Of a stretch of DNA of 48,099 nt, positions 18,432 through 44,742 are shown in pieces. Under the pieces are notes generated by a model. That model was not told the DNA's origin and made no database searches. It worked only from the letters and a program-made list of their open reading frames with translations. Origin of the DNA: a virus. Numbering within the stretch: the first letter of the stretch is position 1; each line of letters begins with the position of its first letter. The position numbers were made by a program, and so were the translations under genes. The stretch covers positions 1 to 48,099 of the IMG/VR virus record IMGVR_UViG_3300021354_000499; one strand, 5' to 3'.

Positions 18432-20081
18432 ATGATTTCAGTCGTTAAACGGAATGGGGCACGAGTTCCTATAGACATAAGCAAAATACAAAGACAGGTA
18501 GCACACGATTGTAAAGGCATTGATGGTGTAAGCCCAAGCATGATTGAGATTAAAGCTCAAATTGAACTTCACGACGGAATGTCAACTAAAACTATTGATG
18601 AATTATTATTAAAAGCAATGGTTGATTTAATTGACGAAACTGAAAATCCAGAAATTAACAATACAAACTATCAATATGTTGCAGGTCGACAAAAAGTTTC
18701 AATGCTTCGTAAAGAAGTGTATGGCTCTTATACTCCTCCTAGTTTATACGAAATCGTTAAGAAAAATGTAGATATCGGAATATACTCATCTGAACTACTT
18801 GAGTGGTATACTAAAGAAGAATGGGGAATTATTGATCTATTTTTAGATCACGACAAGGACGAGTCATACACTTATGCGGCAATTGCACAGTTAGCAGAAA
18901 AATATCTAGTTCAAAATCGAGCTACTGGTCAAATATACGAAACTCCGCAAGTGCGATATGCTATTGCAGCCGCGACAGCATATCATAACGAACCAGCGAG
19001 CAAAAGATTAAAATATGTTAAAGAATATTACGAGTGCGCTAGTGATGGTAATTTTACCCTTGCTACTCCTGTTCTTGCTGGCCTTGGAACTCCTACTAAG
19101 CAGTTTAGTAGTTGTGTTCTCATTAGCAGTGATGACACTCTTGACTCCATTTTTGCCTCGGGAGAAATGATGGCAAAATATGCTAGTAAACGTGCTGGCA
19201 TAGGACTAGAGATCGGAAGAGTAAGACCTCTCGGTGCCCCTATTAGAAATGGAGAAATTAAACACACTGGTTTGATTCCTTTCTTAAAGAAATGGCTAAG
19301 CGATTTGAAAAGCTGTTCGCAAGGCGGCATTAGAAATGCATCATGTACTGTTACACTTCCAATTTGGCATGCACAATTTGAAGACTTTATTGTCTTGAAA
19401 AATAATCAAGGTACTGAAGAAAATCGTGTACGCCAAATGGATTACAGTATTGTTTTAAATAAAATGTTTTGGAATAGATATAGAAAAAGTGAAAACATTA
19501 CTTTATTCGACCCACACGAAGTTTCAGATTTATACGAAGCATTTTATAGAGATCAAACAGAATTTGAAGAACTTTATCTAAAATACGAAAAAGACGAAAC
19601 AAAGACAAAAAAAGTATTAACTGCTGAATCAATATTCAATAGTATTTTAAAAGAAAGAACAGATACAGGACGAATTTATCTTATAAACATCGATAATGTT
19701 ATTAATCAAGGACCATTTGATAGTACAACTGATCCTATATATATGTCAAATTTATGTTTAACGGGTGATACCGTTATTCAGATTATGAACACAGACGGGT
19801 CTGTTCAGTCGATATCTCTTGCCAGCTTTGTTGAACAATATGAATTTGGTGCAATGACTGGTGTTAAGGTTAGAAGTTCAAATATTTCAACAGGAGAAGT
19901 TACTTGGAATACTGTAAGCGACGCGGCCAAAACTGCAACGGTAACAGAACTAATTGAAATTGAAGATGAATCGGGTAAAATTATTAGATGTACACCTGAT
20001 CATCAAATATATACAAAGAATCGTGGATATGTTAAGGCCGGCGATTTATTAGAAACAGATGTGTTATGTATGGAAGAATAA
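18432..20081 (+). CDS. nrdA: NrdA N-terminal part fused to split-intein N-half
   Basis: Residues 1-441 are the N-extein of class Ia ribonucleotide reductase alpha: ATP-cone start (VVKRNGARVPIDISKIQRQV) and GLGTPTKQFSSCVLI with the redox Cys equivalent to E. coli C225. The extein ends MSNL; residues 442-549 are the intein N-half, beginning CLTGDTVIQIM and containing the block-B motif CTPDHQIYTKNRGYV. The reading frame then stops. The missing part of NrdA is the next gene. The two extein lengths add to 761 residues, the size I recall for E. coli NrdA. Makes dNTPs from NDPs with NrdB and glutaredoxin. Confidence 0.93.
   Translation: MISVVKRNGARVPIDISKIQRQVAHDCKGIDGVSPSMIEIKAQIELHDGMSTKTIDELLLKAMVDLIDETENPEINNTNYQYVAGRQKVSMLRKEVYGSYTPPSLYEIVKKNVDIGIYSSELLEWYTKEEWGIIDLFLDHDKDESYTYAAIAQLAEKYLVQNRATGQIYETPQVRYAIAAATAYHNEPASKRLKYVKEYYECASDGNFTLATPVLAGLGTPTKQFSSCVLISSDDTLDSIFASGEMMAKYASKRAGIGLEIGRVRPLGAPIRNGEIKHTGLIPFLKKWLSDLKSCSQGGIRNASCTVTLPIWHAQFEDFIVLKNNQGTEENRVRQMDYSIVLNKMFWNRYRKSENITLFDPHEVSDLYEAFYRDQTEFEELYLKYEKDETKTKKVLTAESIFNSILKERTDTGRIYLINIDNVINQGPFDSTTDPIYMSNLCLTGDTVIQIMNTDGSVQSISLASFVEQYEFGAMTGVKVRSSNISTGEVTWNTVSDAAKTATVTELIEIEDESGKIIRCTPDHQIYTKNRGYVKAGDLLETDVLCMEE
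19755..20078 (+). other. Split intein, N-terminal half (108 residues)
   Basis: Starts with Cys (CLTGD) and carries the TxxH block B (C-T-P-D-H). It closely resembles the phage/metagenomic NrdA and NrdJ split inteins I recall (CLTGD start, CTPDH-x-x-YTxNRGYV). No endonuclease domain is present. It splices in trans with the half encoded at 20082-20183. Confidence 0.92.
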
Positions 20082-20183
20082 ATGCTTAAAATAAAAAGAA
20101 TTACAGTAGAACCAACTGATGTGTATGATATTACTGTGCCAGAAACTGAATGTTTTTTTGCTAATGACATATTGGTCCACAAT
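20082..20183 (+). other. Split intein, C-terminal half (34 residues)
   Basis: Starts MLKIKRITVEPTDVYDITV and ends ECFFANDILVHN, followed by the +1 Cys. F-F-A-N-D-I-L-V-H-N is the usual intein block F/G. It begins at the base after the TAA of the N-half gene. Confidence 0.93.
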
Positions 20184-21146
20184 TGCCAAGAAATCCTTTT
20201 ACCTACACGACCATTCCAACGTATTGAAGATCCAAATGGTAGAATCTCGTTATGTACACTAGGAAGCATAAATTGGGGTTCATACCGTAATCCACAAGAT
20301 ATGCGTAAAGCATGTCGTGTGTTGGTCCGGTCACTTAGTAACTTATTAAACTATCAAGACTTCTTAAGTATTCAAAGTAAACTTGCAAATGATGAATTTG
20401 AACCACTTGGTATTGGTATTACTAATTTAGCATATTGGCATGCAAAACGTAACTTTAAATATGGTGACGAAAATGCATTAGCTGAAGTTAAACGATGGAT
20501 GGAACATCAGGCATATTATCTAACTGAAGCAAGCATTGATCTGGCACAAGAACGCGGTGCATGTGAACGTAGTCAATATACCTATTACGGTCGAGGAATA
20601 TTTCCATGGGAAAGACGTTCATCAGGCGTTGACGAATTAACAGATTTTACACCGAGTTTAGATTGGGAACAACTTCGTGTACGTATGAAAGAATTTGGAA
20701 TTCGCAATGCTACATTAATGGCAGTTGCTCCAGTTGAATCTAGCTCAGTTGTTCTAAACTCCACCAATGGTATCGAAATGCCAATGGAATTGATTTCTGT
20801 AAAGGAATCAAAAGCTGGATCGTTTGTACAAGTTGTTCCAGAGTACAAACGTCTTAAGAATCGTTATCAATTAATGTGGGATCAACAAGATTGTATCGGT
20901 TATTTAAAAACTGCGGCTGTACTTGCAGCCTATGTTGATCAATCACTTAGTACAAATACTTTTTATAATCCTGCATTTTTCCAAGAAGGAAAAGTACCAG
21001 CAACACTTATAGCTAAAAACTTAATGTTAGCGTATAAGTGGGGTTTGAAAACGATTTATTACTCATTAATTAACAAGGTCGGTGCTAAAGTTTCAATTGA
21101 ATCAGATACTATTGAAGATGAAGATTGCGAATCTTGTAAACTTTAA
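20082..21146 (+). CDS. nrdA: Split-intein C-half fused to NrdA C-terminal part
   Basis: Residues 1-34 are the intein C-half; residues 35-354 (320) are the C-extein CQEILLPTRP. Its first residue is the thiyl-radical Cys (E. coli C439) and the third the catalytic Glu (E441). RISLCTLGSINWG holds the second redox Cys (C462), LKTIYYSL the radical-transfer Tyr pair, and the tail DCESCKL the C-terminal reducing pair. All known catalytic residues are thus present. The gene starts right after the TAA of the N-part, with no spacer and no endonuclease gene between. Confidence 0.93.
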   Translation: MLKIKRITVEPTDVYDITVPETECFFANDILVHNCQEILLPTRPFQRIEDPNGRISLCTLGSINWGSYRNPQDMRKACRVLVRSLSNLLNYQDFLSIQSKLANDEFEPLGIGITNLAYWHAKRNFKYGDENALAEVKRWMEHQAYYLTEASIDLAQERGACERSQYTYYGRGIFPWERRSSGVDELTDFTPSLDWEQLRVRMKEFGIRNATLMAVAPVESSSVVLNSTNGIEMPMELISVKESKAGSFVQVVPEYKRLKNRYQLMWDQQDCIGYLKTAAVLAAYVDQSLSTNTFYNPAFFQEGKVPATLIAKNLMLAYKWGLKTIYYSLINKVGAKVSIESDTIEDEDCESCKL

Positions 21147-26394: not shown

Positions 26395-26402
26395 CATAAA
26401 TA
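26395..26402 (+). promoter_or_regulatory. Late promoter motif (CATAAATA)
   Basis: CATAAATA follows the csp stop and precedes AAGGAGA, the ribosome-binding site of the next tiny gene, by 8 bp. Confidence 0.45.
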
Positions 26403-26422
26403 TTAATTTAAGGAGAATTACT

Positions 26423-26518
26423 ATGGCAAGACGTAGTTCAGGACCAAGAGCAAAATCTGTAAAACAAATGGCAAAACGTGCCGCAAAAGCTTCTTTAGGT
26501 AAAAGAGGCAGTAGATAA
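26423..26518 (+). CDS. 31-residue basic peptide
   Basis: Reads MARRSSGPRAKSVKQMAKRA then AKASLGKRGSR, about one third Arg/Lys. AAGGAG lies 6 bp before the ATG, and a late motif precedes it, so it should be well expressed. No domain; possibly a nucleic-acid-binding or virion-packaged peptide. Similar tiny basic proteins occur in other large marine phages, from memory. Confidence 0.6.
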   Translation: MARRSSGPRAKSVKQMAKRAAKASLGKRGSR

Positions 26519-26520
26519 AA

Positions 26521-26876
26521 AGTTAACAGACTTTATTTTTATACAATAAAACATACTATACGAGTAGTCCATCAATCTACCCCGTGAAATGCGGTAATTA
26601 GTATGTTTTAAATATTCAAGTCAATTGTATTAATTGATTGCTCACAAGAGAACCACAGCAATAGTAGCATAATCTTCTAGTGATACAGGTTGTGGTTGAA
26701 TTTTTACAACAATAAAATGTTCATCGAGCACCCTAACTGGCGATAACACCTGAATCACTCATTAGCATAGCTAGAAATTCTCAAGTGCCATAGTATGCTT
26801 TTTATTGTTGTAATTCCTTTAAAATTAAGACATGTAAGACGGGGGTTCGACTTACAAATCGAACATAAATACTATT
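26521..26876 (+). ncRNA. Structured non-coding stretch (tmRNA-like remnant or novel RNA)
   Basis: No coding frame is convincing in these 356 bases. Perfect inverted repeats are seen: AAACATACTA with TAGTATGTTT (about 26548-26607), TTACAACAATAAAA with TTTTATTGTTGTAA, GATTGCT with AGCAAT, and GTTCGA with TCGAAC at the right end. GACGGGGGTTCGACT (26838-26852) looks like the 5' half of a tmRNA T-arm. A late motif (CATAAATA, 26864-26871) leads the endonuclease gene that follows. This could be the remaining body of the permuted tmRNA at 27685, or an intron-like RNA around the endonuclease gene. I could not prove either. Confidence 0.45.
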
Positions 26877-27632
26877 ATGTTCTACACAGTATATAAAACA
26901 ACTAATCTCATTAACGGCAAGATTTATGTTGGGCTTCATGTAACTCGTAATTTAGAAGATAATTATTTAGGCAGCGGATCTCAACTCAAATCAGCAGTTA
27001 AGAAATACGGCAAGGAAAACTTTAAGAGAGAATATATTAAGATATGCAATTCTCCAGAAGAGATGTATAAGTTAGAAGCAGACATCGTAAATGAAGATTT
27101 TGTTAAAAGATCTGATACTTACAATATGAAAACAGGCGGAACTGGATCTTGGTATCATGTAAATTCTAACTCAGAACAAAAGCGTAAGAATAGTAGCAAA
27201 GGCGGCGTAAAGGCTTCTAGCAGAGGTACTAATCCTTTTAAAGATCCGGAATGGCAGAAACAATATAATTGGACACGCACACCGGAAATATTAAAAGCTA
27301 ACAGTATTAAAGCCAAAAGTCCAGAAGCTATTGCAAAAAAGAAAAAAACATTTTTAGAAAGAAACCATCAACAAGGTGAAAAAAATTCACAATATGGTTC
27401 AAAATGGTGTGTTGAAGAGACGGCAATCGATATAAGTAATAGAAAAAAATTTAAAGAAGTTCCAGTAGGTTGGATAACTACAACAGAATGGAAAGAAAGA
27501 AAAAAGAATAAATTAAAACCGGCATACGGAAAACATTGGTATAACGACGGAATTATCAATTATTATCTATATCCAACAGATGATAAAATAAAAGAATTAA
27601 ATTTAGAAAAAAGAAGACTAGTTTCTAAATAA
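26877..27632 (+). CDS. GIY-YIG homing endonuclease
   Basis: Encodes 251 residues. The N-terminal ~90 residues are a GIY-YIG domain: FYTVYKTTNLINGKIYVG (Y-V-Y ... K-I-Y-V-G), NLEDNYLGSG, and the metal-binding Glu in LEADIVNEDFV. The C-terminal part has Lys-rich NUMOD-like DNA-binding modules (KNSSKGGVKASS, NPFKDPEWQ, KAKSPEAIAKKK). It lies immediately upstream of the tmRNA gene, with the structured stretch on its other side, so the pair may form a mobile unit at the tmRNA locus. A late-type octamer (CATAAATA) sits 6 bp before its ATG. Confidence 0.88.
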   Translation: MFYTVYKTTNLINGKIYVGLHVTRNLEDNYLGSGSQLKSAVKKYGKENFKREYIKICNSPEEMYKLEADIVNEDFVKRSDTYNMKTGGTGSWYHVNSNSEQKRKNSSKGGVKASSRGTNPFKDPEWQKQYNWTRTPEILKANSIKAKSPEAIAKKKKTFLERNHQQGEKNSQYGSKWCVEETAIDISNRKKFKEVPVGWITTTEWKERKKNKLKPAYGKHWYNDGIINYYLYPTDDKIKELNLEKRRLVSK

Positions 27633-27684
27633 CAGAATTGTTGTTAAAAGCTCTTTATGAGAGTATCAACTAAAGTGAAAGTAT

Positions 27685-27990
27685 GTGAGACGCGGAGTGG
27701 TGTCCGCCACCTCCACCAGAAAACATCATAAGTGCTCGCAAACCTATTAATAGGCGTGTATAAAAAGTCTGGAGGGTGGACGCATAAAGAGATCCTCTAT
27801 GGTGTTTTCTAATGGGGGTGTATAATCCTTTCGATCATGTATAATAGCGGAAGTTGCAACAGGTTAGATGACCGACCTAATCGGCATAAACTAAGTATTC
27901 GCAAATGACGAAAACTACACAATGGCAATGGCTGCTTAAAATCAGCACAATGTCGGAGTTTAACTAACTTGGCAACAGAATCAGTTACTA
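27685..27990 (+). ncRNA. ssrA: Circularly permuted tmRNA (ssrA), tag ANDENYTMAMAA
   Basis: A 12-codon tag starts at GCA 27901 and stops at TAA 27937 (ANDENYTMAMAA), close to proteobacterial tmRNA tags such as ANDENYALAA. Eighty-seven bases upstream is GGGGGTG (27814), followed by TTTCGATCATG, as in a tmRNA 5' end and D-loop. Its partner CACCTCC-A-CCA (27708-27718) lies upstream, so the acceptor stem is formed across a 95-nt spacer: the gene is permuted, with acceptor piece first and coding piece second. The T-arm GCGGA/TCCGC (27692-27707) has an odd GTGGTG loop instead of TTCGA. A terminator follows. It rescues stalled ribosomes and tags nascent protein for proteases such as ClpXP, whose ClpX this phage also encodes. 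Confidence 0.85.
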
Positions 27991-28016
27991 ATAGCACCTT
28001 TGGGTGCTATTTTTTT
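27991..28016 (+). terminator. Rho-independent terminator after tmRNA
   Basis: ATAGCACC-TTTG-GGTGCTAT stem followed by TTTTTT. It fixes the 3' end of the tmRNA transcript soon after the tag region, as expected for a permuted gene. Confidence 0.88.
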
Positions 28017-28030
28017 GGTAAAATTAAAGG

Positions 28031-28059
28031 TTGCTAAAGTTACGGTTTTGCCGTATAAT
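28031..28059 (+). promoter_or_regulatory. Sigma-70-type promoter (TTGCTA-17-TATAAT)
   Basis: TTGCTA at 28031-28036, perfect TATAAT at 28054-28059, 17-bp spacer. It restarts transcription after the tmRNA terminator; ACAAGGAC is the ribosome-binding site of the gene at 28098. Confidence 0.72.
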
Positions 28060-28097
28060 ATACTTGTAATTTAAATAAACCAACAAGGACTTTTAAC

Positions 28098-28412
28098 ATG
28101 AACGTAGAAACAACTCTTACAGCAATTAGCAAATTTTGCAAAACAAACAGTGGTGATCAACATACTTGGTCCGGTAACACAGGTACTTATCAATGGACTT
28201 TAGGTAAAGAAACTGACCAAGGTATTATGAACGGTGTAGTTAGAAAACTTGCAGGCATTGATATATCAGGTACTCAAATTTGGGTAGTTGCAGGTAGTTT
28301 GAAAATTTTACCAGATGGAACTATTGCACGTTTTACAGGCTTACCTAAGAAAATGCAATCGTTAGTAGGAATCTTAACTTTTATCGAAACAAAAGCAACT
28401 GAAAACGTTTAA
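28098..28412 (+). CDS. Hypothetical early phage protein
   Basis: Encodes 104 residues (VETTLTAISKFCKTN, GDQHTWSGNTGTYQWTLG, FTGLPKKMQSLVGILTFIE). No family recognised. It has its own promoter and AAGGA ribosome-binding site, and the next gene begins one base after its stop. Confidence 0.6.
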   Translation: MNVETTLTAISKFCKTNSGDQHTWSGNTGTYQWTLGKETDQGIMNGVVRKLAGIDISGTQIWVVAGSLKILPDGTIARFTGLPKKMQSLVGILTFIETKATENV

Positions 28413-28815: not shown

Positions 28816-29814
28816 ATGATAATGGCATACTTAACACTTATTTCGGGACTTTTAATCAGCACAGTTGCAATTTTTTATTCTGTTGCAGGATTAACAAGTA
28901 TTTTTAGTTCAGTTGTTTGGCCTATTATAATTATGGGCGCAAGCTTAGAAACAGCAAAACTAGTTGCAACGGTTTGGTTGAAACAAAATTGGGAAATTGC
29001 TCCTAGGTTTCTTAAATCTTATCTATTAGTTGCAGTTGTTATCTTAATGATAATCACATCAATGGGTATTTTTGGATATCTCGCAAAAGCCCACAGTGAT
29101 CAAACCTTGATTAGTGGTGATGAAACTAGCAAAATTGCGGTGTATGATCAAAAGATAAATGTTTCAAAAGAAAATATCGAAACAAATAAAAAACTGTTAC
29201 ATCAAATGGATGAAGCAGTTGATCAGATGATGAGTCGAACTGGAAATAGTGCAGGTGCTGAGAGAGCTGTATCACTTCGCAGAAGTCAGGCAAATGATAG
29301 ACAGCGACTACAAACTGAAATATCAAATGAACAAAAGAATATTGTAGAATACGAAGAACAACGTGCACCGATTGCTTCAGAAATTCGTAAGATTAATGCC
29401 GAAGTTGGACCTATAAAATATATTGCAGCCTTTTTATACGGTGATAATCCAGATGCATCAATTTTAGAAAAAGCTGTAACTTGGGTAATTATACTAATTG
29501 TAATTGTATTTGATCCACTAGCTGTTTCATTATTGTTGGCAAGTCAATATGCATTTGATTTAGAAAAAACAAAAAATCGTAATGAAAAAATTGAAGAGAT
29601 TAACCTTCAAATTGAAGAACCAACAAGTGTAGTTAATGAATCAACTGTATCAATTATTCATACCCCGACTGGTATGATATTTAAAGATGATGTAGGAACA
29701 CACGAAGTTTTGTTAAGTGAAAAAGATATTCAATTTAAGTATGCAAATAATCTTATAACAAAAGAAGAATATTTCGAAGCTATTAAACGACTTCAATTAA
29801 AAGGTAATCAATGA
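28816..29814 (+). CDS. Membrane protein with long coiled coil
   Basis: Encodes 332 residues. Three N-terminal membrane segments (LTLISGLLISTVAIFYSV; SVVWPIIIMGASLETAKL; YLLVAVVILMIITSMGIFGY), a coiled coil at about residues 108-195, then a fourth membrane segment (VTWVIILIVIVFDPLAVSLL) and a soluble tail. I recall similar proteins in many T4-like phages, function unknown. Starts could be 28816 or 28822. Overlaps the next gene by four bases. Confidence 0.65.
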   Translation: MIMAYLTLISGLLISTVAIFYSVAGLTSIFSSVVWPIIIMGASLETAKLVATVWLKQNWEIAPRFLKSYLLVAVVILMIITSMGIFGYLAKAHSDQTLISGDETSKIAVYDQKINVSKENIETNKKLLHQMDEAVDQMMSRTGNSAGAERAVSLRRSQANDRQRLQTEISNEQKNIVEYEEQRAPIASEIRKINAEVGPIKYIAAFLYGDNPDASILEKAVTWVIILIVIVFDPLAVSLLLASQYAFDLEKTKNRNEKIEEINLQIEEPTSVVNESTVSIIHTPTGMIFKDDVGTHEVLLSEKDIQFKYANNLITKEEYFEAIKRLQLKGNQ

Positions 29815-30206
29815 CAAGTAAGATTACTTTAATTACACCACCGGATATATTTGAAAATTCAAACTATAGCATATTGTTCATTGGGTTAACTGAAAAAGAT
29901 CAAGACGATGCTAGTCTTTGGTTAGGAAGAAATGATACTTATCCAGAATGTAATTTTTATTATTATCAAGGTGAAAATAATCCGTCCTGGTTACTTTATG
30001 CATTAAATCGTTCGGATATTTCTTTTTTGAATTTTGAATCAAACGATGCTATAATTAATATTATGGGAAGTTATATTTTAAGTCGGCCGAATGTTTATTA
30101 TACTTCAAAAGATGAAAATTTAAAATCACTAATGAGCCATATAAACAACAAATTTGTTCCTAACGTAACAGCATTTTTAGAAAAGGTGTTTAATGACAAA
30201 AGATAG
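29811..30206 (+). CDS. Hypothetical protein before clpX
   Basis: Encodes 131 residues (MTSKITLITPPDIFENSNYS, GLTEKDQDDASLWLGRNDTY, IINIMGSYILSRPNVYY). It looks like a small alpha/beta protein of the type found before ClpX-like and AAA genes in T4-like phages. Overlaps its upstream neighbour by four bases and clpX by 14 bases, so it is co-translated with clpX. Confidence 0.55.
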   Translation: MTSKITLITPPDIFENSNYSILFIGLTEKDQDDASLWLGRNDTYPECNFYYYQGENNPSWLLYALNRSDISFLNFESNDAIINIMGSYILSRPNVYYTSKDENLKSLMSHINNKFVPNVTAFLEKVFNDKR

Positions 30207-32520
30207 TAAACATTCTTGCAATTTTTGTGGGAAAAGCAAAGCAGATGTATCAAAACTTATTGTTGGTGGTGATTTTGCCATTTGTAACGAATGTGTTGAT
30301 TTATGCTCAAGTATTCTTTTAGATGAAAAGATTAAAGACTTTCCTGATCATGATGATAAACAAAAATTTAATCCAAGCAAAATTAAAGATTTCTTAGACC
30401 AATATGTTATCGGGCAAGATCAAGCTAAAATCGCGTTAAGTGTTGGCGTAGCACAACATTTTAAACGTATTAATAGTCCAAGTAAAGATGTTGTAATTGA
30501 AAAAACTAATGTGCTTATGTTAGGACCAACAGGTTGTGGGAAAGCTCAACCATTGCATAGTAAACTTAAAATTCCAAATGGTTGGATAACAATGTCAGAC
30601 GTTAAATTAAATGATATATTATCAATGCCCGATGGGACTGAAGCAAAAGTAAGTGGGATTTTTCCACAAGGTAAAAAATCAATTTATAAAATTACTTTTT
30701 CTGATGGGCGAACTGCAGAATCATGTGACGAACATTTGTGGAAAGTATATAATGTAAATTGGAAAAATAAATGGAAAGTACTTCCATTATCAGATTTAAA
30801 CAAATGTTTGTCAACTTCAAAAGGAAACTTATATATTCCGTTGTTATCTGTTAATGAAAATGAAGTTGATAAAGAGTTACCGTTAGATCCATATACGTTA
30901 GGTGCATTAATCGGTGATGGCGGATTTACTAATAAAGGTGTAGGTTTTTCAAGTTCTGATCAATTTATCTTAGATAGGGTACAACACGGAATTGGAACAG
31001 ATTATTATCTACGCAAACACCCTTCATCTAAATATGATTATGCTATACGATCTGTAATATCTCAAAATTTTATAAAAGGTGAAACTGTAATAAAAGGAGT
31101 AACTAAAAATAAAATAAAATATGCATTACTTGATTTAGGCTTAATAGGAAAACATAGCGATGAGAAATTTATTCCAGAAATTTATAAACTATCATCATTT
31201 AATCAAAAATTAGAATTAATTCAAGGTCTAATTGATACAGATGGCTATGTTTGTAAAAAAGGTAGAGTAGAATTTACCACTACAAGTATCCAACTTGCAA
31301 ATGATGTGACCGAAATTATTCAAAGTATTGGTGGCATTGCAAAAATTTCAAAAAGTACAAATCGTACTTATATGTATAAAGGATCGCAAACACGGTGTAA
31401 AGATAGTTATAACGTATCAATTCGATATAAAAATCCAAAAGATTTAGTATCGTTGCCAAGAAAAAAAGAACGGTTGTCCGATATATATCAATATTCCGAT
31501 TCTTCTAAAAATAGAGAACTTAAATTAAAAATTAATAAAATTGAGTATGTTGGTGAGCTAGATGCTCAATGTATCTATATTGATCACCCTGAGCATTTAT
31601 ATATAACCGACAATTATGTAGTAACTCATAATACAATGCTTGCTAAAAAAGTTGCAGAGTTTTTAGATATTCCATTTGCAGTTTGTGATGCAACTGGTCT
31701 TACCGAAGCAGGATATGTAGGTGATGATGTTGAAAGTATCTTATCACGATTATTAAGTGTTGCTGATGGTGATATTGAAAAAGCTCAACGAGGAATTATA
31801 TATATCGACGAAATTGATAAAATTGCACGTAAAGGTGAAAATGTTTCAATTACACGTGATGTAAGTGGTGAAGGGGTACAACAAGCACTATTAAAAATTG
31901 TTGAAGGTAGTATCGTGCGTGTTCCGTCAACTGATAAACGTAAACACCCGAAAGGTGAAATGATCGAATTAGACACTACAAATATTTTGTTTATTTGCGG
32001 AGGAGCGTTCGTTGGAATTGATAAAATTATCGGACGTAACAAAGAACCAGCAAGCATCGGATTTAGTAGTCCCGCACGTAGTAAAAAAGATACATCAATG
32101 ATGTTTGATCATTGTACTCCTAAAGATTTAATGAGTTTTGGATTGATTCCAGAATTTATTGGTCGATTTGGATTAACAGTAAATGTAAACGAACTATCGG
32201 TTGAAGAATTAGTTCAGATTCTTAAAGAACCAAAAAACAGTATAATTCAACAATATCAGTATATTTTCAAATTAGACGGAGTTAATCTTAAATTTGACGA
32301 AGATGCATTAACTGTTATTGCTGAGAAAGCAAAAGAATTAAAAACAAATGCTCGTGGTCTTAAACAGATAATCGAGAAACTGCTATTACAATACCAATTT
32401 GAAGCAATGGATCTTGCTGAAAGAGGACTTGAACAAATTGTAATTAGCAAGGAAACAGCCCAAGGTGGCAAAGCAGTACTAATTTTTAAGAAAGAGAATG
32501 GCAAAAAATTATCAAAATAA
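30193..32520 (+). CDS. clpX: ClpX protease ATPase subunit with an intein
   Basis: A 775-residue precursor. Residues 1-50 form the zinc-binding domain (CNFCGKS ... CNECVDLC). Residues 118-480 are an intein inserted in the Walker A motif between Lys and Thr (GPTGCGK | TMLAKK). Removing 363 residues leaves 412, the normal ClpX length (~424). Walker B ([11 protein letters not shown]), the [13 protein letters not shown] motif and sensor-like GRFG remain. ClpX unfolds proteins for ClpP, including tmRNA-tagged ones. No ClpP is seen here, so it may use host ClpP. Overlaps upstream and rpsU genes. Confidence 0.95.
30544..31632 (+). other. LAGLIDADG intein in ClpX Walker A (363 residues)
   Basis: Starts with Ala ([14 protein letters not shown]) in place of Cys/Ser and ends YVVTHN before the +1 Thr of ClpX. 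Block B lies near SCDEHLW (a variant). The LAGLIDADG (DOD) motifs are [10 protein letters not shown] and [12 protein letters not shown], so it is a full homing intein. Codon use matches the rest of clpX. Confidence 0.93.
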
Positions 32521-39187: not shown

Positions 39188-39627
39188 TTATCTAAAAGTC
39201 TTGCAGGATAATCTGTACAGATACCAAAACAATTCTTATCAATATTTTCAAACAGTGGATCATTCCATTCAGGCATAACCATTACACTATTTTTTGTCAA
39301 AGTCTTTCCTGGGTAAGTCCAAATATATCTGTGGCTTGTTAATGTAAATTGATCTTCTTCATGCCAAAAATAATTAAGATTAGTTTTAGTCAACCAATAT
39401 AACGCATCTAAGTTTTTGGCATGAATCCATAATCCAGCAGTTGCAATAAATCCTAGCTCAATTTCATAGGTTGGAAGATCATGTCCCAACCATAATTTAT
39501 CATCAATTACCCAAAGATCAATTTCACAATCGTATCCTTGTTTAAGTGCAAGCTCAATTTGTCTTGGATTATTTTCTATATCTTTATTTGGACCATTAAC
39601 AAGACCTCGATGTGCAATTAGTATCAT
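39181..39627 (-). CDS. GDPD-like (glycerophosphodiester phosphodiesterase fold) protein
   Basis: A 148-residue minus-strand protein: MILIAHRGLVNGPNKDIEN (H-R-G with the usual E/N), then GYDCEIDLWVIDDKLWLGHD (E-x-D-L-W ... G-H-D), matching the TIM-barrel GDPD core. It is short for this family (usually ~240), so the rest of the barrel may be missing or replaced. It overlaps the RuBisCO-like gene by four bases, so the two are co-translated. Phosphodiester bond cleavage is likely, substrate unknown. Confidence 0.7.
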   Translation of the reverse strand: MILIAHRGLVNGPNKDIENNPRQIELALKQGYDCEIDLWVIDDKLWLGHDLPTYEIELGFIATAGLWIHAKNLDALYWLTKTNLNYFWHEEDQFTLTSHRYIWTYPGKTLTKNSVMVMPEWNDPLFENIDKNCFGICTDYPARLLDKK

Positions 39628-40817
39628 TTAATTAAACCCCATTTTGTAATTGCTTGATAATATTCAGGACCATATGTTTTATCAATCGATTGACGCATTG
39701 CTAAAGCACCTGATAATGTTCCTCCTGGATGTCCATGAACTGCTCCGCCTACATTTGCTAAAAAATCATTTCCTGTTAAACTTACAATTTTTTCAACCAG
39801 TCCAGGATGAAATCCACAACTTAATACTGGTAATGTATTACCAGCACGTAATACATTAATACTTTCTGTTAGCTCTTTTGGATCGTCGTTGCTGTATCCA
39901 CCTAACATACCAGTTTGTATAGTATCAACACCCATCATTGTAGCAAGTTGGCAAATAACTGGCCATGCAATACTAAATCTATGTTTAGCATCTGTCATTA
40001 ATTTATCACCAGATTTTTGAAAATGAAGAAATAAAGGCAAATCTAATTGACGAATCGCATTATATACTCCTAATCCACTAAAGACATTGATATGTACTCC
40101 ATTACCACCTAATTCTGCAACTCTTTTAACACGATCAATAATCACATGATGATCAGCATTAACAGTATGACAAAAAACAACTTTACGACTTTGTTTTGCA
40201 AGATAGTTAGCAATAATATCAACCCTGCGTTCTAATGGAGCACACACAGGATTTGACATAATTTCGTCTTCTTTAATGAAATCTGCACCACCATCAACTT
40301 GTTGTTTTACCATTTCTAATAATACTTCAGGAGTAATACCAATTTTTGGTTTAACAATGCTACCAAATAACGGTTTATCAAATTGACCTGTAAATTGGCG
40401 TATTCCACTTAGACCAAATTTAGGTCCTTTAAAATACCTTGTAACTGTTTCCGGTAATTCTAACTTAATTAGTCGACAAGAAGTAACACAATCAATATCA
40501 ACATGTCCGCCCATTAATTGGCAAATTAGATGACTTATACCATCTGTTGCCCAATCAGTATTTGCAACAGGAAATGCAATTTCAACTGTTCCAATTTTAG
40601 ACTGTTTTAAAATTTCTTCTTCGGCAAGAATTATACAACTATGATTTTCAAATATTTCATCAGTTTCCCATTCATTTCGAACATTTGGATTACCAACGCT
40701 CTGGCCAATTGCAATATTCCATGCAGCATCATTTAAACTAGTATTGCTTGTTAAATCATACGTAGCAATAAAATACTTGTTTAAATCAATTTCATTTCTT
40801 TCTCTATAAAACTTCAT
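39624..40817 (-). CDS. RuBisCO-like protein (form IV)
   Basis: A 397-residue RuBisCO large-subunit homologue. KPKIG (K156/K158, equal to spinach K175/K177) and GGADFIKEDE (K182, D184, E185 at the carbamylation/metal site) are conserved, with HRF for H294. Loop 6 reads QTGMLGGYSND with no Lys for K334 and no His for H327, so it is not a true carboxylase. Form IV RLPs act as enolases, isomerases or other C-C/C-O enzymes of sugar or methylthio compounds. Overlaps the cupin gene upstream by 14 bases and the GDPD-like gene downstream. Confidence 0.9.
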   Translation of the reverse strand: MKFYRERNEIDLNKYFIATYDLTSNTSLNDAAWNIAIGQSVGNPNVRNEWETDEIFENHSCIILAEEEILKQSKIGTVEIAFPVANTDWATDGISHLICQLMGGHVDIDCVTSCRLIKLELPETVTRYFKGPKFGLSGIRQFTGQFDKPLFGSIVKPKIGITPEVLLEMVKQQVDGGADFIKEDEIMSNPVCAPLERRVDIIANYLAKQSRKVVFCHTVNADHHVIIDRVKRVAELGGNGVHINVFSGLGVYNAIRQLDLPLFLHFQKSGDKLMTDAKHRFSIAWPVICQLATMMGVDTIQTGMLGGYSNDDPKELTESINVLRAGNTLPVLSCGFHPGLVEKIVSLTGNDFLANVGGAVHGHPGGTLSGALAMRQSIDKTYGPEYYQAITKWGLIK

Positions 40818-43077: not shown

Positions 43078-43531
43078 TAAATGAACAACATTCACCATTA
43101 GAGCTCGCACAGGCTAACTTCGTGTGCCAATGACAACGGAACCGTTTGGTTGCCGGGACTGAACTGCTGTGGTGGCAGGAACTTAGTGACTATCCTTAAC
43201 AGGACGAAGATCAGATATGCCTTCATAAAACTGGTTTCGCTATTTGAAGAATTTTAGTAAAGGCTTAATGAAGGGACTGTGTGCCCTACGTTGTACTGCA
43301 AGACTGATATTTGTAGTATAACCGCCGTCGTATAAAGACGCAACTCGAGGTACCGGACGACCGCCTCTGTAATGTTGTAATATCAGGACTGTAAAGAACT
43401 CAGATAATGTTTCTTTTATCACTTTGCCCTGTCTGGGCAAAGTGTGACCATTGAATCTAGATAATATATTCAGTGTCAGTTTTAAAAAATGTGATGAGTG
43501 CAAACGAAATCACAAGTGAGCTTAAGCTCAC
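43078..43531 (+). ncRNA. Large putative structured ncRNA (~450 nt)
   Basis: No coding frame is convincing on either strand. Many hairpins are visible: GCACA/TGTGC near 43106-43126, CGGAACC/GGTTGCCG near 43137, CTGC/GCAG near 43170, CCTTCAT/ATGAAGG, AGGG/CCCT, and a perfect CACTTTGCCC-TGTCT-GGGCAAAGTG (43420-43444), ending in GTGAGCTT-AAGCTCAC (43516-43531) before hemA. The strong promoter upstream, GC-richer sequence and long-range complementarity support a structured RNA. It does not match my recall of RNase P, 6S, tmRNA or a group I intron; relatives of large phage RNAs such as ROOL or GOLLD are possible but unproved. Confidence 0.6.
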
Positions 43532-44742
43532 TATTCAAACTTATTAAATGCTTCTTTCAAACTCTCAGCAAGATAGTAAATATCTGCTTCTGTATGATTA
43601 GGTGTTGGGCAAGCTCTCAATCTTTCAGTTCCCCAAGGTACCGTTGGAAAATTTATAGGTTGTAAGTAAATTCCTTTTTCATCTAAAAGATAATCACTTA
43701 TAGATTTACATTTCTTTGCATCTCGAACCATAATAGGGACAATATGTCCTCCTTCAGAAAGAGGATTTATTTCTAAGCCATTTGCTTTTAAATGTTCTCT
43801 AGTTGCTTGAGCAATACTCATTATTTTAGTTCGTAAGTTAGGTTGATCTTGTACATATTTTACACTTGCTAGGGCTCCTGCACATAATACAGGTGCAAGA
43901 GAAGTAGAAAAAATTAACCCTTGTGCATAACTGCGTATCATGTCAATTAGGTCGCGGCCTGCTGCAATATATCCACCCTGAACACCAAAACCTTTTGCAA
44001 GTGTACCTTGTATAATGTCAACTCCGTCTACACATTTTTGTTCTTCAGCAATTCCTGCTCCTCTAGGTCCATATAGACCTACAGCATGAACTTCATCAAC
44101 ATATACCATTGCTCCATATAAACGAGCAATTTCACATACATCACTTATAAGACCCTTATCACCATCCATACTATAAACACCTTCTAATGCAATTATAGGT
44201 TGTACATTTTGATCAAGACTTTTAAGTATTTCCTTTAGATGTTCTAGATCATTATGTTTCCATATTGTACGAGGTACTTTACTTGACTTAATACCTACAA
44301 TCATTGAATTATGGTTTTGAGCATCACTTATATAATGTACATTAGGTAGAATCATACCTAATACGCTTAGTGTGCTTTGATTAGCAACGTATCCGCTTGT
44401 AAACGTAAGTGCAGCAGTCTTATCATGTAAAGTTGCTAATTCACGCTCTAAGGCAACATGATAGTGTGTTGTTCCGCTTATGTTACGAGTTCCACCTGAC
44501 CCAGCACCTGCGGTATCTAATACTGTATGCATTGCATCAAGTACAACTTTATGCTGGCCCATTCCTAGATAGTCATTTGAACACCAGTTTGTTATTTGTT
44601 TAATGTTATAACGTCCATACCAAATAGCTTTTGGAAAATCACCTTTTTGGCGAAGGATGTCCGTGAATACTCTGTAGTTTCCTTCTGAACGAAGTTTTTC
44701 TAAACTAGCAGCAATTGCGTCTTGTGTTTTTGGTTTAATCAT
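43531..44742 (-). CDS. hemA: 5-aminolevulinate synthase (ALAS)
   Basis: A 403-residue minus-strand alpha-oxoamine synthase. GAGSGGTRNISGTTHYHVAL, YVDEVHAVGLYGPRGAG (Asp and His that hold PLP) and GTLAKGFGVQGGYIAAG (PLP Lys250), plus the ALAS-type RACPTPNHTEADI end, fit ALAS rather than KBL or AONS. It joins glycine and succinyl-CoA to make 5-aminolevulinate for haem. The S-D-A-Q-N-H-N-S motif differs slightly from the usual S-D-E-L-N-H-A-S. Full family length. There is no obvious Shine-Dalgarno. It is one of few haem genes known in phages, from memory. Confidence 0.9.
   Translation of the reverse strand: MIKPKTQDAIAASLEKLRSEGNYRVFTDILRQKGDFPKAIWYGRYNIKQITNWCSNDYLGMGQHKVVLDAMHTVLDTAGAGSGGTRNISGTTHYHVALERELATLHDKTAALTFTSGYVANQSTLSVLGMILPNVHYISDAQNHNSMIVGIKSSKVPRTIWKHNDLEHLKEILKSLDQNVQPIIALEGVYSMDGDKGLISDVCEIARLYGAMVYVDEVHAVGLYGPRGAGIAEEQKCVDGVDIIQGTLAKGFGVQGGYIAAGRDLIDMIRSYAQGLIFSTSLAPVLCAGALASVKYVQDQPNLRTKIMSIAQATREHLKANGLEINPLSEGGHIVPIMVRDAKKCKSISDYLLDEKGIYLQPINFPTVPWGTERLRACPTPNHTEADIYYLAESLKEAFNKFE

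Follow-up and report, generated by a model that had tools for sequence, protein, structure and literature searches.

A permuted phage tmRNA gene probably rebuilt around a SegB-like homing endonuclease gene

The window (the whole stretch of DNA analysed here, a 48,099-bp virus record from IMG/VR and a T4-like contig) carries an intact circularly permuted tmRNA gene. It was probably rebuilt when a free-standing homing endonuclease gene of the SegB type came in along with a replacement tRNA-like domain. Read from the sequence, the locus holds the intact tmRNA, the remnant of an older one, the endonuclease gene between the two, and a coding piece of mosaic composition. The endonuclease would have caused the break by cutting the T-arm, the new domain would have come in through double-strand-break repair, and the new T-loop/D-loop pair may resist recutting. 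An initial annotation had drawn attention to the odd T-arm and to a T-arm-like motif beyond the GIY-YIG gene; this observation is confirmed, and the interpretation placed on it is partly supported. The features of the locus are as follows.

26803-26852, plus strand: 5' remnant of an old acceptor piece of the TTCGA-loop type, consisting of the leader, P2 3' strand, GAC, T-stem 5' strand GGGGG and T-loop TTCGACT; homology ends at the T-loop
26841-26852, plus strand: T-arm-like motif GGGGGTTCGACT at the end of the remnant, 851 bp 5' of the present T-arm
26864-26871, plus strand: T4 late-promoter-like box CATAAATA just before the endonuclease ATG, a consensus match only
26877-27632, plus strand: SegB-like GIY-YIG free-standing homing endonuclease gene, intact, 251 aa (Pfam, phrog_314)
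27634-27718, plus strand: new complete acceptor piece with leader AGAATTGTTGTT; 5' end not mapped
27681-27688, plus strand: P2 3' strand of the new acceptor piece
27692-27707, plus strand: T-arm GCGGA[GTGGTG]TCCGC of the new acceptor piece
27716-27718, plus strand: CCA of the new acceptor piece
27719-27813, plus strand: intervening segment of 95 nt between CCA and coding piece, presumably excised in processing
27814-27989, plus strand: coding piece including the acceptor 5' strand, tag frame and 3' domain; 3' end inferred
27827-27828, plus strand: D-loop CC of the coding piece
27835-27842, plus strand: P2 5' strand of the coding piece
27901-27939, plus strand: tag reading frame ANDENYTMAMAA-stop; first codon inferred
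27990-28011, plus strand: intrinsic-terminator-like hairpin, then a T run

The present-day tmRNA and the older acceptor piece

The complete permuted tmRNA occupies positions 27634-28011. All seven pairs of its acceptor stem form between GGGGGTG (27814-27820) and CACCTCC (27708-27714), a pairing that is possible only if the CCA piece lies 5' of the coding piece, and the circular permutation initially proposed on this ground agrees with the match of the Rfam model tmRNA_permuted (RF04321) to 27663-27939 at 72.4 bits, above its cut-off of 47. The alpha and beta tmRNA models, which had been suggested as a check, gave a divided answer: alpha_tmRNA (RF01849; 27618-27989) lies marginally above its cut-off at 53.6 bits versus 50, whereas beta_tmRNA (RF01850; 27624-28014, E 8.7e-22), although it is the best of the clan by E-value in a focused search, scores 73.3 bits versus a cut-off of 84. 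ARAGORN reported no tmRNA on the window. An unconstrained cofold of both pieces forms the acceptor stem, the T-arm and the P2 helix, the GTGGTG T-loop is present beside the CCA as first noted, and the tag frame has the hydrophobic end and stop expected of a permuted tmRNA. By these features the tmRNA is an intact two-piece permuted gene that looks to be in working order.

The relatedness of the upstream motif to tmRNAs was evaluated against a survey of loci (designated by L numbers). Wider scans in which neither loop was fixed, taken together with the loci found earlier, yielded at least 249 candidates, three of which paired poorly and were set aside; the remaining 246, most of them judged by acceptor and T-stem pairing without Rfam, form 190 clusters among the matches listed.

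The motif GGGGGTTCGACT has no 3' stem strand, its GGGGG being left unpartnered and followed by TACAA, and with 15 occurrences of GGTTCRA in the window versus 9 expected it is unremarkable by itself; a scan for AC plus a T-arm motif, with 23 matches upstream and 28 downstream, is likewise too noisy to be used alone. When the gap 5' of the endonuclease gene was locally aligned with all acceptor pieces, positions 26803-26850 were identical at 38 of 48 ungapped positions to the acceptor piece of L050, whose permuted tmRNA is intact and has a TTCGATT loop. No shuffle reaches the score of 51, either among 100 mononucleotide or among 200 dinucleotide ones (dinucleotide maximum 33), and scores of 37 or more are obtained with 7 of the 190 clusters among the matches listed, all of which have TTCGATT loops. 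A scan upstream of the 180 clusters with enough upstream sequence gave scores above 40 in L143 (53), the window (51) and L006 (45), the maximum of the reverse-complement control being 34; the downstream peaks were 43 and 40, and the first of these looks like a tRNA-type arm.

The match spans the leader and the P2 strand and stops at the T-loop. Leader and P2 strand are absent from tRNAs. Because 48 nt match real acceptor pieces the motif stands above chance, and because the match includes parts found only in tmRNAs and ends at the T-loop, GGGGGTTCGACT is read as belonging to a genuine acceptor piece of which one half survives, 26803-26852 being what is left of the 5' side of an old piece after a break at the T-loop. 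A chance T-arm motif is rejected on the strength of this match and of the shuffle and reverse-complement controls. The motif placed initially about 850 bp upstream of the tmRNA, beyond the GIY-YIG gene, is therefore real. It had also been reasoned that continuous tmRNAs with the same T-loop in relatives would show the motif to be chance; such tmRNAs were found, without an endonuclease gene, in L008 and L013-L015, but they do not make the motif a chance one, since separate evidence shows its derivation from a tmRNA.

As the upstream half does come from a tmRNA, it could in principle still be used, through splicing or base pairing, in a three-part or spliced tmRNA, as the initial annotation had considered. 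This is extremely improbable: GGGGG cannot pair properly with TCCGC, the group I and group II intron families gave no match even at E 10 in 26400-28100, where there is also no group I core, and the downstream acceptor piece is complete. The related proposal that the present tmRNA is broken is rejected, since that piece has its own T-arm and pairs fully with the coding piece.

The region directly 5' of the remnant (26520-26802, plus strand) is a structured non-coding region without an Rfam match. It has long hairpins, one of which has its 3' arm formed by the beginning of the old acceptor remnant. The fold of 26520-26880 has a z of -2.5. Compared with other tmRNA parts, 26520-26802 gave no match better than shuffles, and an exact scan with part of the structured region gave 0 matches.

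The endonuclease gene and the GUGGUG tRNA-like domain

The gene between the old remnant and the new acceptor piece matches PF01541 (GIY-YIG) at 25.3 bits versus a cut-off of 22.6 and phrog_314 (homing endonuclease) at E 1.5e-36. Of the specifically named proteins in the phage records, SegB of T4 is its best relative (E 2e-35, 40.5% identity across 80% of the query), and Y17 and G19 are placed as in the SegB catalytic pair. The gene is free-standing: a search of 26400-28100 for intron families gave nothing at E 10 or better. The suspected link between the T-arm break and the GIY-YIG gene is supported; this intact gene lies between the old and new acceptor pieces. According to PMC13096335, SegB cuts within tRNA genes and favours RAWTSGAAC, found at 23 of 83 sites, and its genes are located together with tRNAs; we read RAWTSGAAC as the reverse complement of GTTCSAWTY, a tRNA T-arm.

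The remnant adjoins the CATAAATA box 5' of the endonuclease gene. Promoters of this type are overlapped, in I-TevI and related enzymes, by copies of the homing site that act as operators (PMC2988022), and by analogy with this precedent it may be speculated that the old T-arm also serves as an operator.

Apart from the window, GUGGUG T-loop tmRNAs occur in 11 viral loci. A T-arm pattern scan found 8 viral stretches, all 8 of them permuted tmRNAs by Rfam, and a D-loop pattern scan with the T-arm unspecified found 12 stretches, of which 11 hold a permuted tmRNA, each of the 11 with GTGGTG; the twelfth, L016, was rejected as not a tmRNA. Among the 190 clusters of the matches listed, GTGGTG is found in five (the window, L006, L008, L009 and L013), and the D-loop has CC in place of the usual GG in all five, versus 0 of the 185 others. 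In this comparison L006, L008 and L009 were selected by the T-arm pattern with the D-loop free and L013 by the reverse, and the window was selected for neither. All five distinct sequences have 7 of 7 acceptor-stem pairs and 8 of 8 P2a pairs. P2a covaries, with compensatory changes on both strands (for example C-G versus U-A), and the T-stem varies between G-C and A-U and between A-U and U-A, its last pair being mismatched in two of the five sequences. Rather than damage, the GUGGUG loop is a trait of this family. Joined by a CC D-loop in all five clusters, it belongs to a distinct tRNA-like domain, in which a contact between CC of the D-loop and GG of the T-loop may replace the usual one.

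A further scan for CC-type D-loops gave 24 stretches, 12 of them new, and none of the 12 has an acceptor piece upstream. In genome contigs, a scan for T-arms with a 6-nt loop gave three matches, two of which are alphaproteobacterial-type tmRNAs by Rfam with CCGGGGCGGTACCCGG arms, so that a cellular source of GTGGTG was not found there. DNA similarity searches among named phages returned only itself for the tmRNA of Pelagibacter phage Mosig and no match for that of L006. A different odd T-loop of 8 nt, TATCGTAT, occurs in L068 and L198, and that of L068 adjoins the C-terminal part of an endonuclease gene.

The association between the endonuclease family and the GUGGUG domain was evaluated with profiles seeded from three GTGGTG-linked genes. 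Such a gene, or part of one, lies at the 5' side of the tmRNA in six clusters (the window, L006, L009, L095, L066 and L068); by eye, the L066 gene is HNH nuclease-like with the same C-terminal region, and L068 has that region only. Among the matches listed, the gene adjoins 3 of 5 GTGGTG clusters versus 3 of 185 others (p 0.0002, or 0.003 when the window is left out), an enrichment that is biased upward because the seeds came from GTGGTG loci. With seeds chosen regardless of tmRNAs the family was found in seven clusters, and in two of them, the window and L006, adjacent to the tmRNA, which is weak. Also weak (p 0.064) is the scarcity of TTCRA loops, found in 0 of the 6 endonuclease-adjoining clusters versus 69 of 184 others among the matches listed. 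Of 95 ORFs directly 5' of a tmRNA, three match phrog_314, and among 95 downstream ORFs this family is not one of the best 25.

The mosaic coding piece and the origin of the arrangement

The segments of the coding piece differ in their closest matches. Over nt 1-24 the window agrees with the GTGGTG relatives at 22 of 24 positions and with L050 at 11 of 24; over nt 53-90 it agrees with L050 at 27 of 38, and with the GTGGTG relatives at 17 to 21 of 38-40 (for L013, 21 of 72 in a gapped alignment), the boundary being blurred between nt 25 and 52. L009 shows the same division: its nt 1-24 are identical to those of L008 and L013 (24/24) and match L186 at 12 of 24, and its nt 53-125 match L186 at 68 of 73. 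By BLAST, the tmRNA match of L009 to L186 begins only at coding nt 53 (93% over 74 nt, where the L186 contig ends), and genes further upstream match at 66-73% in longer pieces. As judged from these alignments, the coding piece is a mosaic in which the tRNA-like start follows the GUGGUG family and the mRNA-like part follows phages with TTCGATT loops, and the two parts therefore have different histories.

The order of elements seen in the window recurs. In L006 (with L010 and L011 in the same cluster) an old acceptor-like stretch is followed by a GIY-YIG gene and then by a complete GTGGTG tmRNA, the upstream stretch matching L124 at 31 of 35 positions with a score of 45 that 0 of 200 shuffles reach. 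The cluster of L009, L005, L007 and L012 has a different GIY-YIG-like gene (phrog_314 at E 5e-4 and no Pfam match for the L005 copy), and the three loci checked (L009, L005 and L012) have, 5' of this gene, a match of 14-20 nt to the 5' end of the L186 acceptor piece; the L009 remnant is weak past the first 15-20 nt. L008 and L013 (with L014 and L015), which have the GTGGTG tmRNA without an endonuclease gene, have no remnant in the upstream gap tested. The full order in L006 and the partial order in L009, together with its absence from the gene-less L008 and L013, are counted in favour of rebuilding; that L008 and L013-L015 carry the GUGGUG domain with no such gene counts against it. Also on the opposing side, L095, L066 and L068 have related genes beside the tmRNA and no old remnant; the remnant is thus absent from three of the six clusters with the endonuclease beside the tmRNA, and without the window its association with the endonuclease has a p of 0.055. 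The ORFs of L006 and L009 end in KNSV-stop, their last codons being tmRNA leader sequence, and L008 has the same leader sequence without any such gene.

These comparisons favour the following sequence of events. An ancestral tmRNA with an ordinary TTCGA T-loop would have been broken at that loop when the endonuclease cut an allele lacking the endonuclease gene. Repair would have drawn on a phage that carried the endonuclease gene and a different tRNA-like domain, bringing in the endonuclease gene and the GUGGUG acceptor piece, together with a start of the coding piece, ~24 nt or longer, that includes the matching D-loop. The outcome would be the old piece up to the T-loop, the endonuclease gene, the new acceptor piece, the new coding start and the native mRNA-like part, with the 5' half of the old acceptor piece left stranded upstream.

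An explanation without exchange is a tandem duplication: the phage would have doubled its own acceptor piece and received the endonuclease gene between the two, with one of them degenerating and the other acquiring its GUGGUG loop by drift. Something of this kind is seen in L143, where a cassette with a 64-aa ORF is flanked by two directly repeated copies of the tmRNA acceptor 5' end, both alike, and of which L222 is apparently the empty allele; the ORF being no endonuclease, duplications of the acceptor end do not need one, and the native-type leader AGAATTGTTGTT kept by the new acceptor piece of the window is also as duplication would have it. The new T-arm and the first 24 coding nt, however, are those of the GTGGTG family of other phage lineages (22/24 to 24/24), so that drift in place would have to produce the same domain repeatedly, and the old copy retains its TTCGA loop. 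Duplication is accordingly rather unlikely. (A small ORF similar to that of L143 lies 5' of the tmRNA in L013.)

Mere neighbourhood, in which a SegB-like gene happened to land beside the tmRNA and nothing connects the history of the GUGGUG domain with that of the remnant, would suit a family as common as this one, which matches 891 of 50,697 phage records and has relatives in Klebsiella phage Lion_ER11 (annotated) and Rhizobium phage TM30 (ORF called here) that end in the first ten bases of a tRNA gene (both from INPHARED); the co-location of SegB genes with tRNAs is, moreover, already published (PMC13096335). What chance adjacency would not lead one to expect is a broken TTCGA acceptor piece beyond the gene in two lineages together with a mosaic coding piece, and the seed-biased enrichment of the gene at GTGGTG clusters (3/5 versus 3/185 among the matches listed) also speaks against it, leaving this explanation with little probability.

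Rebuilding may be an instance of something more general. It is tentatively proposed that SegB-like endonucleases home into tmRNA T-arms and bring along a tRNA-like domain immune to their own cutting, its T-loop changed from UUCRA to GUGGUG and its D-loop jointly from GG to CC, possibly with a reversal of their contact; such a homing element would rewrite the tRNA half and spread that half between phages, with the tag half staying native. This would suggest why unusual tRNA-like domains arise in phage tmRNAs, namely as an escape from endonucleases directed at the T-arm, and it puts a natural set of co-changed D-loop/T-loop pairs on offer.

Known systems and the genomic neighbourhood

Two-piece tmRNAs are known in phages (53 of 133 phage tmRNA structures in PMC9004378; PMC11915505 reports 79 phage tmRNAs with one- and two-piece forms pooled). 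The succession of acceptor piece, intervening segment and coding piece is that described in PMC9004378 for Pelagibacter phage Mosig EXVC030M and Methylophilales phage Melnitz, which are T4-like aquatic phages. The annotated SsrA of Mosig scores 93.6 bits on tmRNA_permuted; it has the loop TGCAACT and no 5' endonuclease gene, whereas the window has GUGGUG, a D-loop CC and a broken second acceptor piece.

The predicted enzyme resembles SegB of T4 and T6, a free-standing GIY-YIG enzyme of the tRNA region, in identity, in the Y17/G19 positions and in lying beside a tRNA-type gene, but unlike SegB its gene lies at a tmRNA, flanked by what appear to be an old remnant and a replacement tRNA-like domain. 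Fungal mitochondrial mORFs, as reported in PMC3630166, bring a foreign C-terminus to atp6, atp9, cox2 and nad3, and the likeness would be that an endonuclease ORF lies in a gene, a native part is displaced and a foreign replacement is supplied. In the window, too, the end of the old gene appears displaced and a divergent replacement lies beside the ORF. The mORFs described there concern mitochondrial protein genes, whereas here it is a permuted RNA gene of a phage that would be supplied with a tRNA-like domain, and the displaced end lies downstream in atp6 but upstream in the window. With the group I introns in tmRNA T-loops described in PMC11915505 the window shares the point of interruption; unlike these, it has no intron and nothing to splice, the old gene having apparently been truncated and replaced. 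The logic of a displaced end and a foreign replacement would thus extend to a structured RNA gene of a phage, in which the lost half is still readable. A literature search on homing endonucleases with tmRNA found, among the papers listed, no title on such an arrangement, which is no proof of absence.

Other T4-like genes on the window encode ribonucleotide reductase, DHFR, ThyA and a ClpX-like protein. Window positions 1-25000 have no similar DNA among the 50,697 phage records (near mode), and DNA similarity to named phages is confined to endonuclease genes, with no tmRNA. For the flanking proteins, no close relatives of 28098-28412 were found, and 28816-29814 has one close relative, without a tmRNA. 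The gene order of the 25558 ORF, a cold-shock gene and the 28414 and 28816 ORFs is similar around the tmRNAs of L122, L041, L032, L130 and others; read by eye, seven such syntenic loci have no endonuclease gene between the cold-shock gene and the tmRNA, having a small ORF and a promoter-like stretch there instead. No endonuclease-less allele of the window's own phage was found.

The 48-kb window has neither an SmpB nor a ClpP gene. About 2.2 kb 3' of the tmRNA, 30193-32520 (plus strand) encodes the ClpX-like protein, which has AAA and zinc finger domains and contains an interrupting intein-like insert of the LAGLIDADG type. Proteins tagged by ssrA are unfolded by ClpX, so both the tag and the unfoldase may come from the phage. 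The ribonucleotide reductase large subunit (18432-21146, plus strand) is, as read from the sequence, split between two neighbouring frames, and an intein-like stretch lies where they part. A Polynucleobacter-1 RNA (RF01718, 86.4 bits) lies at 43102-43245 (plus strand) and occurs also in L008, another phage with a GTGGTG tmRNA. At 43531-44742 (minus strand) is a class I/II aminotransferase-fold enzyme (Pfam Aminotran_1_2) that by eye resembles 5-aminolevulinate synthase or a relative, and 39624-40817 (minus strand) encodes a RuBisCO large-chain-like protein (Pfam RuBisCO_large, E 1.5e-33) on this phage contig.
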